A DNA stretch of 55,353 nt from Azoarcus indigens (GTDB lineage: Bacteria; Pseudomonadota; Gammaproteobacteria; Burkholderiales; Rhodocyclaceae), in contig NZ_SNVV01000030.1 in the NCBI RefSeq assembly GCF_004361735.1, forward strand, positions 1 to 55,353, written 5' to 3'. The translations under genes were made by a program, and so were the position numbers. Each line of letters starts with the position of its first letter. Positions within the stretch are counted from its first letter, which is position 1. Positions 10,558 to 15,253 of this stretch are shown here, piece after piece. The notes under the pieces are model-generated. The model searched no databases and had not been told where the DNA came from. It was given only the letters and a program-made list of their open reading frames with translations.

Positions 10558-10684
10558 GGCGCGGATTCTAACCGCGCCCTTCCCCGCCGCAATCTCCTTC
10601 TCCATATGCGTCGGCGCAACACCGTGCCTTGCCGACATCCGCTCGATCCAGCCGCCGGCTGGTGGGCCTGCCGCGCGCCGCGCC

Positions 10685-10690
10685 TATAAT
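10685..10690 (+). promoter_or_regulatory. Perfect TATAAT -10 box upstream of the Memo gene
   Basis: TATAAT preceded by GCGCC. The -35 region 17 bp upstream (GTGGGC) is poor. A start site near 10697 would leave a leader of 30-60 nt before the Memo-family gene. It probably drives the Memo-AMMECR1-CooA-like series. Confidence 0.5.
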
Positions 10691-10759
10691 CGAAGATCAA
10701 GTCCGCAATGCGGGCGCGGTTTTTGCTCCATGTCACCTGTCCATAGTTCCATTCACGCC

Positions 10760-11584
10760 ATGGCCATCGCTTCCGTCCGTCCGGCTGCCGTCGCCGGCCA
10801 GTTCTACCCCGCCGATGATCGGGTGCTGCGTGCCCAGATCGGCGAAATGCTCTCGTCCGCGGTCGCGCTCGACGAGGCGCCCATGCCCAAGGCATTGGTG
10901 GTGCCCCATGCCGGCTACATCTACTCCGGGCCAGTGGCCGCCACGGCCTACGCCAGCCTGGGGGCGCTGCGGCAGCAGATCCGCCGCGTCGTGCTGCTCG
11001 GCCCGGCGCATCGCATGCCGGTGAACGGCTTCGCGCTACCGGCGGCGCAGGCCTTTGCCACACCGCTGGGCGAGATCCCGATTGCCCGGGAGGACTGGCT
11101 GGTGCTGCAGGAGAGGCCAGACGTGGTCGTCGACGACCGCCCGCATGCGCTGGAGCACTCCCTGGAAGTGCAGTTGCCTTTCCTACAGCTTTGTCTGGAC
11201 AGCTTCGAACTGGTGCCGCTGCTTGTCGGGCGTGCGACCCCCGAAGCCACCGGCGAGTTGCTGGAAGCACTATGGGGCGGCGCGGAGACGCTGATTGTCA
11301 TCAGCTCCGATCTCTCCCACTATCACCCTTACCACCAGGCCTCCACCTGCGACCGCGCGACGGTGCAGCAGATCCTGCTGATGCATGGCGGCATCGACCA
11401 TGAACAGGCTTGCGGCGCCACGGCGGTCAATGGCCTGATTCCGGTTGCCCGCCGCCACGGGCTGGTGCCCCGGCTGCTCGACCTGCGCAACTCCGGCGAC
11501 ACCGCCGGCGACCGCAGCCGGGTCGTCGGCTACGCCAGCATCGCCTTCTGCGATCCCCTCCCCGATGCCGCCCTCAGACACTGA
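10760..11584 (+). CDS. amrB: AmmeMemoRadiSam system protein B (Memo family)
   Basis: Memo-like protein (274 aa from this start), related in fold to class III extradiol dioxygenases. Its bacterial reaction is unknown. Conserved metal-site segments are visible: HAGYIYSGPVAATAY, LLGPAHRM, EHSLEVQLPFLQ, SSDLSHYHPY and a late CGATAVNG. The start at 10760 gives MAIASVRPAAVAGQFYP, matching family N-termini. An in-frame ATG at 10730 would add ten residues, and neither start has a clear Shine-Dalgarno sequence. It overlaps the AMMECR1 gene by 20 bp. Memo, AMMECR1 and a radical SAM protein recur together as the AmmeMemoRadiSam system, and all three are present here. Confidence 0.9.
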   Translation: MAIASVRPAAVAGQFYPADDRVLRAQIGEMLSSAVALDEAPMPKALVVPHAGYIYSGPVAATAYASLGALRQQIRRVVLLGPAHRMPVNGFALPAAQAFATPLGEIPIAREDWLVLQERPDVVVDDRPHALEHSLEVQLPFLQLCLDSFELVPLLVGRATPEATGELLEALWGGAETLIVISSDLSHYHPYHQASTCDRATVQQILLMHGGIDHEQACGATAVNGLIPVARRHGLVPRLLDLRNSGDTAGDRSRVVGYASIAFCDPLPDAALRH

Positions 11585-12128
11585 ACTCGGCGGGCTGCTG
11601 CTGGCCCGCGCCCGCCAGGCCATCGCCCATCATCTCGGCCTGGGCGAGCCACCGCCGCCCGAGCCCGCGCTGGCCGAACGCGGCGCCACCTTCGTCACCC
11701 TGACCAAGGACGGCGAACTGCGCGGCTGCATCGGCAGCCTGCGGCCGCAGCGCAGCCTGGCAGAGGATGTCGCGGCCAACGCGGTCGGAGCCTGCCGCGA
11801 CCCACGCTTCCCGCCGTTGTCGGCCGACGAGTTTCCGTCGATCAGGATCGAAGTCTCGCTGCTGTCGGCGCCCGACTTCCTGGCCTTCGCCGACGAGGCG
11901 GACCTGCTGTCACAACTGCGTCCGGATGAAGACGGCCTGATCCTGTTCGCCGGCTGCCGCAGCGCCACCTTCCTGCCGCAAGTCTGGTCCCAGCTGCCGG
12001 AGCCGGCGCGCTTCCTGGCGGCGCTCAAGCACAAGCTTGGATTGGCGGCGGACCATCCGGCCGAGCGCTTGATGGCGGCGCGTTACTCAGTGCGCAAGTG
12101 GGCGGAAACCGGAGCGGACGGGGTATGA
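11565..12128 (+). CDS. amrA: AmmeMemoRadiSam system protein A (AMMECR1 domain)
   Basis: 187-aa AMMECR1-domain protein. The diagnostic LRGCIG hexapeptide is present (GELRGCIGSLRP), followed by AEDVAANAVGACRDPRFPPL and a C-terminal FLAALKHKLGL segment, all typical. The function is unknown, although the human homologue is linked to disease. The start at 11565 lies within the end of the Memo gene. A longer in-frame opening at 11445 reads low-complexity sequence antiparallel to no known domain and is rejected. The stop overlaps the start of the CooA-like gene as ATGA, so the regulator is translationally coupled to this system. Confidence 0.9.
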   Translation: MPPSDTELGGLLLARARQAIAHHLGLGEPPPPEPALAERGATFVTLTKDGELRGCIGSLRPQRSLAEDVAANAVGACRDPRFPPLSADEFPSIRIEVSLLSAPDFLAFADEADLLSQLRPDEDGLILFAGCRSATFLPQVWSQLPEPARFLAALKHKLGLAADHPAERLMAARYSVRKWAETGADGV

Positions 12129-12856
12129 AAACCGGCCCGACCGACCTGCCTCCGCCCCACGCAGCCCCCCAGGCGCATGAACATGGAAAGGGGCATGGGC
12201 AGGGTGGACACGGCGGCCATCCCGGCGCCGCCGGCGGCCTGTTCCAGCTGCCCGAGCTCAAGCTGCGGCGCTACGCCAAAGGCGAATACATCACCTATCC
12301 CGGCAGCGGCGACGACGCTGTATTCCAGCTGCAGAGCGGCCGCCTGCGGGTCTTCCTGTCCGGCGACGACAAGGAGTTGACCCTGGCCTTCCTCGAACCG
12401 GGCGAAGTCTTCTCCAGCCACACCCGTGCCTGGGTGGAGGCGGTGAGCGATTGCAGCCTGCTGATCGCCGACACCAAGCGCTTCCAGGCCCAGCTGCTCT
12501 CCGATCCCAAGCTCACCCCGGCCATCATCCGGGTGTTCGCCCGGCTGCTCAGCAATTCGATCAACATCATCGAAAACCTCGCCTTCCGCGACGTCAGCGC
12601 CCGGCTGGCAAACTTCGTGCTGGGCCTGGCGCGCGCCGCGGACGCCGATCTGCCGATGGGACTGCGGGTGCCGCTGCAGCTGCGTACCGAGGACATCGCG
12701 CGCCTGCTCGGCACCTCGCGGCAGACGGTGTCCTCGCTGATCAGCCAGCTGGTGCGCGACGGCGTGCTCGCCCGCGAGGGCCGCCGCGCCCTGCTGCTGC
12801 TGGATCCCGCGGAACTGGCACGGCGCGCGAAAGGCAGCGAATTGTCGTCTGGCTGA
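12125..12856 (+). CDS. CooA-like CO-sensing Crp/Fnr-family regulator
   Basis: 243-aa Crp/Fnr-type regulator. It has a cyclic-nucleotide-fold sensor (about 40-160), a dimerisation helix, and a C-terminal helix-turn-helix (RTEDIARLLGTSRQTVSSLI). It resembles Rhodospirillum rubrum CooA: SGRLRVFLSGDDKELTL and GEVFSSHTRAWVEA align with CooA segments around its heme site. H99 aligns with the CooA heme ligand His77, but S97 stands where CooA has Cys75. An unusual N-terminal extension holds six histidines between 12 and 32; in CooA the N-terminus supplies the heme ligand displaced by CO. cowN follows directly, and a CooA-type operator overlaps this gene's stop codon. Heme and CO binding are inferred. 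The start overlaps the AMMECR1 stop (ATGA). Alternative: another heme or redox Crp family regulator. Confidence 0.8.
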   Translation: MKTGPTDLPPPHAAPQAHEHGKGHGQGGHGGHPGAAGGLFQLPELKLRRYAKGEYITYPGSGDDAVFQLQSGRLRVFLSGDDKELTLAFLEPGEVFSSHTRAWVEAVSDCSLLIADTKRFQAQLLSDPKLTPAIIRVFARLLSNSINIIENLAFRDVSARLANFVLGLARAADADLPMGLRVPLQLRTEDIARLLGTSRQTVSSLISQLVRDGVLAREGRRALLLLDPAELARRAKGSELSSG

Positions 12857-12858
12857 CA
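12843..12858 (+). promoter_or_regulatory. CooA-type operator upstream of cowN
   Basis: TGTCGTCTGGCTGACA is a TGTC-N8-GACA palindrome. It matches the CooA consensus TGTCA-N6-CGACA at all outer positions. It overlaps the last codons and stop of the CooA-like gene. A CAGAAT box at 12881-12886 would put the start site near 12893 and the operator centre near -43, the class II activation distance. cowN starts at 12918. Confidence 0.72.
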
Positions 12859-12917
12859 GACAGCGGTACGGGGTGGCCCCCAGAATCGCGTCCATCGCCA
12901 ACTCCGAGGACTGCCCC

Positions 12918-13253
12918 ATGAACGCACCGCTTCCCCCCAAGAGCCAGCAGCTGAGCAACCCCTTCGCCGAGGCCCTGGACAAGCCGGACCGCTACATCTC
13001 CTTCTGCGGCATCGACTGCGACGGCAACGCCAAACTGCTGATGACCTACATCCGCCGCCACATCGACGCGCCGGGCCAGAGCAACGCCTTCTGGGACAAG
13101 TTCCGCGACAAGCTGGAAGGCCGCAGCAGCGAGCGCTGCGACGAACTCTTCCTGGTCCACAGCTACATCAACATGATCCGCGAGCTGCTGGAAACCTACG
13201 ACGACGAGGAAGGCCTGCTGCTGCTGGACAAGCTCGAAGAGGAATGCTGCTGA
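12918..13253 (+). CDS. cowN: CowN, protects nitrogenase from carbon monoxide
   Basis: Small acidic protein (111 aa) of the CowN family, which sustains nitrogen fixation in the presence of CO and is found in diazotrophs. The core reads RYISFCGIDCDGNAKLLM, then FWDKFRDKLEG, and the protein ends LDKLEEECC; the paired terminal cysteines and the GIDCDGNA segment are typical. The N-terminus is about 20 residues longer than in short members. The ATG at 12918 has GAGGA 7 bp upstream and is preferred over an upstream start at 12873. In R. rubrum cowN is induced by CO through CooA, which fits the CooA-like gene and operator immediately upstream. No nitrogenase gene is in the window. Confidence 0.9.
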   Translation: MNAPLPPKSQQLSNPFAEALDKPDRYISFCGIDCDGNAKLLMTYIRRHIDAPGQSNAFWDKFRDKLEGRSSERCDELFLVHSYINMIRELLETYDDEEGLLLLDKLEEECC

Positions 13254-13343
13254 GGACTTTCCGTCAGCGTCTCCGGACGCCGTCCGGCAGATCCCCGGCA
13301 CCGTGCTAGCCTGAAAGCTAGGACTGTTCAGGCCGGCACAGCG

Positions 13344-14435
13344 ATGGAACCCAGCAGCAATCACCCCGCCCGCTACTGGCACGCCCTGGACGACGGGCGC
13401 CTCCAGTGCGATCTGTGCCCGCGCTACTGCCATCTGCACGAAGGCCAGCGCGGCGCCTGCTTCGTGCGCATGAACGATGGCGGCCGTCTGGTCCTCACTA
13501 CCTGGGGCCGCAGCTCCGGCTTCTGCATCGACCCGATCGAAAAGAAGCCGCTCAACCACTTCTACCCTGGCAGCAGCGTGCTCTCCTTCGGCACCGCCGG
13601 CTGCAACCTCGCCTGCAAGTTCTGCCAGAACTGGGACATCAGCAAATCCCGCGACATGGACCGGCTGATGGACCAGGCACGGCCGGACGACATCGCCCTC
13701 GCCGCCCAGCGCAATGGTTGCCGCAGCGTCGCCTTCACCTACAACGACCCGGTGATCTTTGCCGAGTACGCGATGGACATCGCCGACGCCTGCCATGAAC
13801 GCGGCATCGCCACCGTAGCGGTCACGGCCGGCTATATCACGCCAGATGCACGGGGGGATTTCTTCTCCCGCATGGATGCGGCCAACGTGGACCTCAAGGC
13901 CTTCAGCCCGGCCTTCTACCGCCAGCTCTGCGGCGCCGATCTGCAGCCTGTGCTGGATACGCTCGTCTGGCTGCGCCACCACAGCGACGTCTGGCTGGAG
14001 ATCACCACCTTGCTGATCCCCGGGCACAACGACAGCGAGGCGGAACTACAGGCGCTGTCACGCTGGGTCCGCAGCGAACTCGGCGACGAGGTGCCGCTGC
14101 ACTTCACCGCCTTCCATCCCGACCACAAGATGCGCGACGTGCCGGCGACGCCGCCGGAGACGCTGAGTCGCGCCCGCCGGCTCGCGCAGGACGCAGGCCT
14201 CAAGCACGTGTATACCGGCAACGTCCATGACCCCGCCGGCGGCACCACCCGCTGCGGCCAGTGCGGCGAGGTGCTGATCGTGCGGGACTGGTACCGGATC
14301 CTCGACTACCACCTGACTGCCGAGGGCGCCTGCTCCCATTGCGGCACTCGTCTCGCCGGCCGCTTCGGCCCCTACGGCAAGCCCTTCGGCCCGCGCCGCA
14401 TTCCCATCGCGATACACGCCGCAAGGCCCGCCTGA
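13344..14435 (+). CDS. amrS: AmmeMemoRadiSam system radical SAM enzyme
   Basis: Radical S-adenosylmethionine protein (363 aa). The 4Fe-4S motif CNLACKFC (CxxxCxxC) follows FGTAGC and precedes QNWDIS, the family signature. An N-terminal cysteine cluster (CDLCPRYCHLHEGQRGAC) and a C-terminal CGQCGE / CSHCGTR pair may bind further metal. It is related to pyruvate formate-lyase activating enzymes, but the substrate is unknown. It is separated from the Memo and AMMECR1 genes by the CooA-like gene and cowN. The 90-bp gap upstream has a short CTAGC/GCTAG hairpin and no obvious Shine-Dalgarno sequence. Confidence 0.92.
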   Translation: MEPSSNHPARYWHALDDGRLQCDLCPRYCHLHEGQRGACFVRMNDGGRLVLTTWGRSSGFCIDPIEKKPLNHFYPGSSVLSFGTAGCNLACKFCQNWDISKSRDMDRLMDQARPDDIALAAQRNGCRSVAFTYNDPVIFAEYAMDIADACHERGIATVAVTAGYITPDARGDFFSRMDAANVDLKAFSPAFYRQLCGADLQPVLDTLVWLRHHSDVWLEITTLLIPGHNDSEAELQALSRWVRSELGDEVPLHFTAFHPDHKMRDVPATPPETLSRARRLAQDAGLKHVYTGNVHDPAGGTTRCGQCGEVLIVRDWYRILDYHLTAEGACSHCGTRLAGRFGPYGKPFGPRRIPIAIHAARPA

Positions 14436-14524
14436 GCCGGCTTGCCCGCATCGGGCGGCTGTGCCATGCTGGCCCAACGCCTGCGGCCGGCCCCGGCCGC
14501 GGCCCCAGCCGAGAAGAAGCGCCC

Positions 14525-15253
14525 GTGAAGCTCCGCCACACGCTGATCAGTCTGCCAACCGAAGGCATCTGGCTAGATGGCCTGCTCTCCCATGCCCCGG
14601 ATGTACGCGCGCTGGCCATCATCCTGCAACCCAACGCCCACCATCCCGCCCGCGCCCGCGAGTCGCTGATCGCCGCCACCCTCCAGGAGGCCGGCTTTGC
14701 CACGCTGACGATGAATCTCCTGAGCCACTACGAGGAGAGCCGCGATCCCGACGCCCACTTCAATGTCCCCCTGCTGGCCAACCGGGTACTGGCCACCGCC
14801 GACTGGGTGCTGCATCAGCCACCGCTGATCGGGCTGCCCATCGGCCTTGTTTCCCTCGGCACCGCCAGCGGCGCCGCCATCCGTGCGGCGGCCAAGTCGC
14901 CCGAGTGTTTCGGTGCCCTCGCCTGCCTGGGCGGCCGGCCCGACCTCGCCGGCGCCGCGCCGCTGCGCACCCTGGTAAGGCCGGTGAGCTTCATCGTCGG
15001 CAGCCGCGATGAAGGCCTGGAGATGCTGCGCCAGGCCTACGACCTGATCACCGCCACCCGCAGCTGGAAGACGCTGAACACTGGCGATTTCAGCCATGCG
15101 GACGACACTGACATCCACGCCGGCGCCCGGCTTGCCGCCGAATGGCTGATCGCCCACCTGCCGGAACGTCCGCCCGCGATCATCGAACCGCCCGCGGCTG
15201 ATGCAGACGCGCCCCTCGCCTCGCCCTCGGCCCCGCCCCATCAACCGGATTGA
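14525..15253 (+). CDS. Alpha/beta-hydrolase-like protein (dienelactone hydrolase type)
   Basis: 242-aa protein with an alpha/beta-hydrolase outline: an early strand ALAIILQPNAHHPA, an elbow region VSLGTASGAAIRAAA, an acid-region strand VSFIVGSRDEG and a late histidine in GDFSHADD. The GTG at 14525 is chosen because coding character begins here and a purine-rich GAGAAGAAG lies upstream; in-frame sequence further left overlaps amrS. At the nucleophile elbow, related proteins have G-x-S-x-G, but here the order is G-T-A-S-G, so the nucleophile position is alanine and a serine sits one residue later. The catalytic state is uncertain. The C-terminus is rich in Pro and Ala. It lies 89 bp after amrS. 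Confidence 0.7.
   Translation: MKLRHTLISLPTEGIWLDGLLSHAPDVRALAIILQPNAHHPARARESLIAATLQEAGFATLTMNLLSHYEESRDPDAHFNVPLLANRVLATADWVLHQPPLIGLPIGLVSLGTASGAAIRAAAKSPECFGALACLGGRPDLAGAAPLRTLVRPVSFIVGSRDEGLEMLRQAYDLITATRSWKTLNTGDFSHADDTDIHAGARLAAEWLIAHLPERPPAIIEPPAADADAPLASPSAPPHQPD

Follow-up and report, generated by a model that had tools for sequence, protein, structure and literature searches.

The cooA-cowN locus

The stretch of DNA analyzed here (the window, 55,353 nucleotides) is contig C30 of the 5.46 Mb, 76-contig assembly of Azoarcus indigens, for which completeness is listed as 99.99%. It carries a gene for a CooA-type Crp/Fnr regulator followed directly by cowN, and the coordinates that a first-pass annotation had given for these two genes are exact when checked on the sequence (Table 1). 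The pair splits an AmmeMemoRadiSam cluster, the full order being Memo, AMMECR1, cooA, cowN and the radical SAM gene (10760-14435), with the stop TGA of AMMECR1 overlapping the ATG of the regulator (ATGA).

Table 1. Coordinates of genes and predicted regulatory elements at the cooA-cowN locus
Feature	Position	Strand	Details
Memo-like gene (AmmeMemoRadiSam protein B), upstream neighbor	10760..11584	+	TIGR04336, 268.8 bits
AMMECR1 gene (AmmeMemoRadiSam protein A)	~11565..12128	+	TIGR04335, 168.9 bits; start codon (11565) picked by eye
CooA-type Crp/Fnr regulator	12125..12856	+	ATG 12125, TGA 12854-12856, 243 aa
Predicted CooA operator TGTCG-N6-TGACA	12843..12858	+	only exact match in the window
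-10-like hexamer CAGAAT	12881..12886	+	22 nt after the operator; weak
cowN, N2-fixation sustaining protein	12918..13253	+	ATG 12918, stop 13253, 111 aa; PF20543, NF033689
AmmeMemoRadiSam radical SAM enzyme, downstream neighbor	13344..14435	+	TIGR04337, 624.9 bits

The identity of CowN is clear from its scores against PF20543 (132.1 bits, cut-off 27) and NF033689 (130.5 bits, cut-off 48); it is the sole PF20543 match in the A. indigens genome, and the closest named relative found, in Azoarcus sp. TTM-91, is 99% identical. The same genome holds four PF00148 genes, which are NifD, NifK, NifE and NifN (all over cut-off); no Vnf or Anf subunit reaches its cut-off.

The gene order of the window is repeated at four further loci (L009, L028, L020 and L021, where L020 has a short flank and no Memo match). 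Other CooA-CowN loci show no Memo, AMMECR1 or radical SAM match in the flanks covered (about 1.5 kb; 8 kb for most of one set). Among the genomes sampled from the genus of the window, cowN is borne by G000, G394, G454 and G498. Literature on the function of the AmmeMemoRadiSam cluster did not appear among the matches listed.

Identity of the regulator

The first-pass annotation described the gene upstream of cowN as a CooA-like member of the Crp/Fnr family, and here the ranking against the PDB, the tree and the individual residues agree with that description. In a phmmer search of the PDB the top matches are to CooA of Carboxydothermus hydrogenoformans (3e-41, 4e-39), followed by CooA of Rhodospirillum rubrum (1e-29), all as full-length chains, and the best CRP other than CooA stands at about 1e-14. 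Pfam reports generic Crp domains; the 18 NCBIfam models listed all stay below their cut-offs and no CooA model is among them, so the assignment to the family is drawn from similarity, tree and residues.

The tree of 69 rows splits 29 CooA-type rows (27 regulators taken from loci or genomes with cowN, together with the R. rubrum and C. hydrogenoformans proteins) from 40 generic CRPs at 100/99, and the grouping with non-heme Crp proteins that the first-pass annotation had allowed for was not found. This split is to be read with the long-branch warnings of the tool and with the origin of the generic rows, which came out of the same profile searches with low scores and include no named FNR or RcoM references. 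The cowN-linked rows do not form a clade separate from the two known CooAs.

The AlphaFold model of the regulator has a mean pLDDT of 82, with residues 15-37 below 50. The fold search with this model places CooA 2hkx first (E 1e-21, TM by query 0.73) and 2fmy second, and two CRP entries (2e-16, 4e-16) rank above R. rubrum CooA 1ft9 (4e-16, fifth), which means that the fold alone cannot tell CooA from CRP. The low TM values of 2fmy and 1ft9, with an rmsd near 12, we read as an effect of domain orientation. As judged from its sequence, the regulator is a CooA by its grouping, its axial histidine and its operator, and its other two ligands set it apart from the R. rubrum type.

Linkage of cooA and cowN across genomes

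Of the 369 genomes in the class sample 4 encode CowN, and of the 199 in the family sample 33 do; all of these 33 carry PF00148 nitrogenase-type genes. A CooA profile built from 19 cowN-adjacent regulators (A1) scores 252-311 bits in 21 of the 199 family genomes, with 109.3 bits as the best of the next genome. CooA is therefore, by this profile, present in 21 of the 33 cowN genomes vs. 0 of the 166 others (Fisher 3e-20, kinship ignored), and the regulator and cowN matches lie at most 160 bp apart in 20 of these 21 genomes and 2,667 bp apart in G483. The profile searches scored no more than 7 (385-genome search) or 14 (family sample) candidates per large genome, so that weak relatives can be missed. 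A search for further CooAs in two other classes of the phylum gave, in 48 genomes, a single high scorer (L053) and, in 385 genomes, four matches of 108.7-114.4 bits that lack the axial His. Among 72,556 plasmid records, one matched at 1e-20.

Since 12 of the 33 cowN genomes in the family sample are without a high-scoring CooA, cowN does not need CooA. Among the matches listed, cowN lies 1.7-1.9 kb from a PF00148 gene in seven of these genomes (G375, G424, G442, G488, G490, G522 and G552) and 39-95 kb from one in three (G388, G449 and G495), and for G427 and G473 no PF00148 gene is listed on the cowN contig. The exact CooA site is absent at the loci of genomes without a high-scoring CooA where cowN is near a nitrogenase-type gene (L029, L034, L038-L041 and L046), and at L041 a gene with FeMo-cofactor-binding domains stands just upstream.

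Operator and promoter between the two genes

The CooA site has been given as tGTCg-N6-tGACa (PMC8047169). In the window, the predicted operator spans the last codons of the regulator together with its stop codon and ends 59 bp before cowN. When one mismatch to TGTCR-N6-YGACA is allowed, the window holds 4 matches vs. 4.9 expected, no more than chance. A search of the 250 bp leading up to cowN finds the exact operator at 23 of the 29 loci where CooA is adjacent and at 0 of the 13 where it is not (Fisher 1e-6, near-duplicates included). The best site at those 13 has one mismatch at two loci, two at eight and three at three, and the six imperfect operators among the 29 have one mismatch (L030, L032, L033, L045 and L047) or two (L035). 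The operator overlaps the CooA stop in the register of the window at 15 of the 29 loci and in another register at L027 and L031; in the rest it is nearby, except at L032, where the site is far off, away from the gene junction. Four near-duplicate pairs (L009/L028, L010/L023, L011/L024 and L012/L022) make the independent cases fewer than 29, and L013, at a contig edge, was left out of the operator, promoter and ligand counts.

A candidate -10 element keeps a fixed distance from the operator. In all 24 distinct promoters, drawn from 28 loci (L032 was left out of this count because it has no junction operator and its genes overlap), a hexamer of the form nA...T begins 21-22 nt past the operator, a spacing that shuffled sequences give in 1.9 cases on average and in 7 at most (2000 trials). 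In 13 of the 24 the hexamer reads TA...T at 21 nt. If transcription starts about 7 nt after the hexamer, the operator center would fall near -42, the class II position.

Loci outside the set follow the same plan to varying degrees. Both L053 and L121 (Rhodobacter sp. CZR27, operator at the stop codon) have the exact operator, a 21 nt spacing and a hexamer (TATACT and TATCCT, respectively) ahead of cowN. L101 is a less good fit, with a one-mismatch operator and GAACAT at 22 nt. In G483 (L100), where cowN is 2.7 kb off, a one-mismatch site follows the regulator with no nA...T at 21-22 nt, and ARAGORN reports no tRNA at this locus. A scan for sigma-70 hexamer pairs over 10600-14600 of the window returned none; a missing -35 may occur in an activator-dependent promoter and gives no support to the one proposed. 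The LSxG that recurs at the C-terminus of relatives may stem from constraint on the DNA site and not on the protein. Together, the linkage and the conserved operator and -10 element lend support to the proposal, made on first inspection, that regulator and cowN form a CO-response module, as far as sequence can speak to it.

The same 12843-12858 also fits TGT-N10-ACA, the NifA upstream activating sequence, such that one 16-bp stretch comprises a stop codon, a predicted CooA site and a possible NifA site. It could be supposed that NifA and sigma-54 drive cowN at this palindrome with CooA secondary or idle, and two observations would favor such an arrangement: every TGTCR-N6-YGACA site is also a TGT-N10-ACA site, and in Gluconacetobacter diazotrophicus, whose algH-cooA-cowN genes were described in 2021, a CooA site some 60 bp ahead of cowN overlaps a NifA-type site and CowN is 30-fold higher in N2-fixing than in ammonium-fed cells (PMC8047169). 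We consider this unlikely, however, as a sigma-54 promoter for cowN was sought and rejected (no + strand TGGCAC-N5-TTGCW match begins in 12859-12953 even when 3 mismatches are allowed), none of the 13 cowN loci that lack a neighboring CooA has the exact palindrome (7 of these loci lie next to nif genes), and the spacing of the sigma-70-like -10 is fixed.

Heme ligands and the N-terminal arm

His99 of the regulator aligns with His77 of R. rubrum CooA. A histidine at this position is shared by 29/29 cowN-adjacent regulators, 22/22 high-scoring regulators and 8/40 low-scoring CRPs, which makes His99 consistent with CooA but not sufficient. At the position of Cys75, a ligand of the ferric heme in the R. 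rubrum protein, the regulator has Ser97, and the 29 cowN-adjacent regulators have S (15), V (6), T (5), C (2) or A (1); both Cys rows (L020 and L021, in genomes G454 and G394, respectively) belong to the genus of the window. CooA of C. hydrogenoformans keeps the Cys but is not known to use it as a ligand. Ligation by Cys75 would mark R. rubrum-type proteins rather than all CooAs, so its loss is no bar to membership of CooA and need not alter the cue that is sensed. Ser97 argues against a redox switch of the R. rubrum type, not against the assignment to CooA.

The N-terminal arm (residues 1-45) is rich in histidine. It starts MKTGPTD, is longer than that of R. rubrum CooA and holds no equivalent of Pro2. 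Histidine occurs in the arms of 27 of the 29 cowN-adjacent regulators and His-Pro in 21, counts that carry some uncertainty from relatives' start codons having been picked by eye. His makes up 9.8% of arm residues vs. 1.5% of the remaining residues, and the presence of His-Pro in 17 of 25 distinct arms was equalled by only 2 of 5000 same-letter shuffles. The arms of both solved CooAs (R. rubrum and C. hydrogenoformans) have no His. Arm length and the position of the His vary among the cowN-adjacent regulators, and five arms (L010, L011, L019, L023 and L024) are at most 15-16 residues long, as set by an upstream stop, where R. rubrum CooA has 23 residues ahead of the same point in the alignments. 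In R. rubrum CooA, the ferrous heme is ligated by His77 and by the Pro2 that the partner subunit contributes (PMC9670170, PMC12750200). From the above we infer that the heme of the present regulator may be bis-His, with an arm His as the displaceable ligand.

A broader proposal, which we put forward tentatively and somewhat doubt, is that the CooAs linked to CowN make up a CO-sensor class of their own: the heme would be bis-His, with the arm His (often in His-Pro) displaced by CO, and the thiolate redox switch of R. rubrum would be lost, leaving CO sensing free of redox gating, while the operator fused into the stop codon would make a compact sensor-promoter-target cassette able to land in unrelated operons. 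The parts of the CooA and CowN literature consulted describe neither an operator in the stop codon nor the His pattern of the arm, and no priority is claimed for them. The differences at Cys75 and in the arm are likewise not claimed as unpublished; Youn, in 2004, is said to have reported that CooA of A. vinelandii binds CO and may already note them. Residues 12-34 of the arm (12158-12226) form a His/Gly-rich stretch whose six His might also coordinate a metal, e.g., nickel or copper.

The same variation can be taken to mean that the heme sensor, after losing the R. rubrum ligands, drifted to NO, O2/redox or a heme cue and drives cowN under N2-fixing or low-oxygen conditions. The scarcity of Cys at the Cys75 position and the differing length and residues of the arms, five of them shorter than that of R. 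rubrum CooA, would suit such a change. A drifted cue nevertheless seems quite improbable to us given that the regulator is tightly linked to CowN, whose tested role is relief from CO (PMC8047169), and that the operator is of the CooA type; the loss of Cys, as argued above, does not by itself imply a new cue.

CO dehydrogenase genes and the use of CO sensing

The first-pass annotation noted no CO dehydrogenase genes in the window, and this absence extends to the assembly as tested. No match to CooS (Prismane, PF03063) was found in its 5.46 Mb and 76 contigs, and a CoxL-like match on contig C37 was rejected as CoxL (best TIGR02416 467 bits vs. a cut-off of 991). A motif scan of L048-L051 found none of the CoxL active-site motifs. 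With NifD, NifK, NifE and NifN present, no CooS and no CoxL over cut-off, the suggestion that CO sensing here is protective rather than catabolic fits. Across the family sample a CooS-type gene occurs in 2 of the 21 CooA genomes (G477 and G565) and also in G424, which has no CooA; the matched stretches score 431-452, under the cut-off of 478, and cover positions 39-601 of 621. The other genomes with PF03063 matches (G442, G473 and G509) hold hydroxylamine reductases.

Proposed mechanism and relation to known systems

We regard it as highly probable that the pair is a CO-protection module in which a heme regulator of the CooA type senses CO, activates cowN and so sustains Mo-nitrogenase. The regulator, encoded within the Memo-AMMECR1-cooA gene string, would act as a homodimer whose heme is held between His99 and a residue of the N-terminal arm. 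CO binding would displace the arm ligand and allow the dimer to bind the TGTCG-N6-TGACA site where its own gene ends; the center of this site lies some 42 bp ahead of the presumed start point of cowN (class II). There the dimer would recruit RNA polymerase to the sigma-70-type promoter, and the additional CowN would keep Mo-nitrogenase working under CO. Heme and CO binding, the distal ligand, the transcription start point and the induction of cowN are the conditional parts of this scheme; family membership, linkage, operator and promoter layout, the NifD/K/E/N genes and the lack of a CooS match are what can be read from the sequence itself. That the regulator is instead a non-heme Crp protein, with cowN read through from the Memo-AMMECR1 operon, is hardly credible: the overlap of its ATG with the AMMECR1 stop, the generic Pfam Crp domains and a TATAAT upstream of Memo (10685-10690, for which the hexamer-pair scan gave nothing) would allow it, but the PDB ranking, the tree, the axial His in 29/29, the conserved operator and -10 between the two genes and the occurrence of the pair elsewhere with no Memo or AMMECR1 match in the flanks covered all speak against it.

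A cooA-cowN module of this type is already known from Rubrivivax and G. diazotrophicus. In Rubrivivax gelatinosus CBS, cooA beside cowN was printed in 2014, and both genes also occur in strains without anaerobic CODH genes (PMC4257681). The pair of R. gelatinosus and R. benzoatilyticus resembles that of the window in joining cooA to cowN, the AmmeMemoRadiSam setting being the window's; in the portion of PMC4257681 consulted, no discussion of ligand residues or operator was found. G. diazotrophicus is like the window in having CooA upstream of cowN and Mo-nitrogenase only (PMC8047169), whereas the window has no algH among the neighbors scanned and has Memo-AMMECR1 upstream and the radical SAM gene downstream. 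In that species the level of CowN goes up with CO and under N2-fixing conditions (PMC8047169), which favors the module proposed here.

Among the CooAs themselves, R. rubrum CooA (1ft9) shares with the regulator its fold, His77, SRQT in the recognition helix and the type of operator, but the regulator has Ser for Cys75, lacks Pro2 and has an arm that is 22 residues longer and His-rich. The closest solved relative in the fold search, CooA of C. hydrogenoformans (2fmy, 2hkx; 38-39% identity), differs in its retained Cys and His-free arm and is named a regulator of a CO oxidation system.

The comparison across genomes suggests a testable rule, by which CooA-linked cowN with its own operator marks diazotrophs that shield nitrogenase from CO on demand, while in other diazotrophs cowN is part of the nif cluster or adjoins an RcoM-like gene. 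The comparison further supplies a natural set of CooAs with non-textbook heme ligands, which should help in working out which ligand gives way to CO and what purpose the Cys switch serves.

The RcoM-type (PAS-LytTR) gene is another likely CO sensor adjoining cowN, but its protein is unrelated to CooA. Such a gene lies beside cowN in R. rubrum (PMC4257681), and at L042 and L044 (genus g292 of the same family) one is divergent from cowN in place of CooA, with the exact CooA operator absent at both. At L042, TTCGTGCAGG-like words are repeated upstream of cowN.
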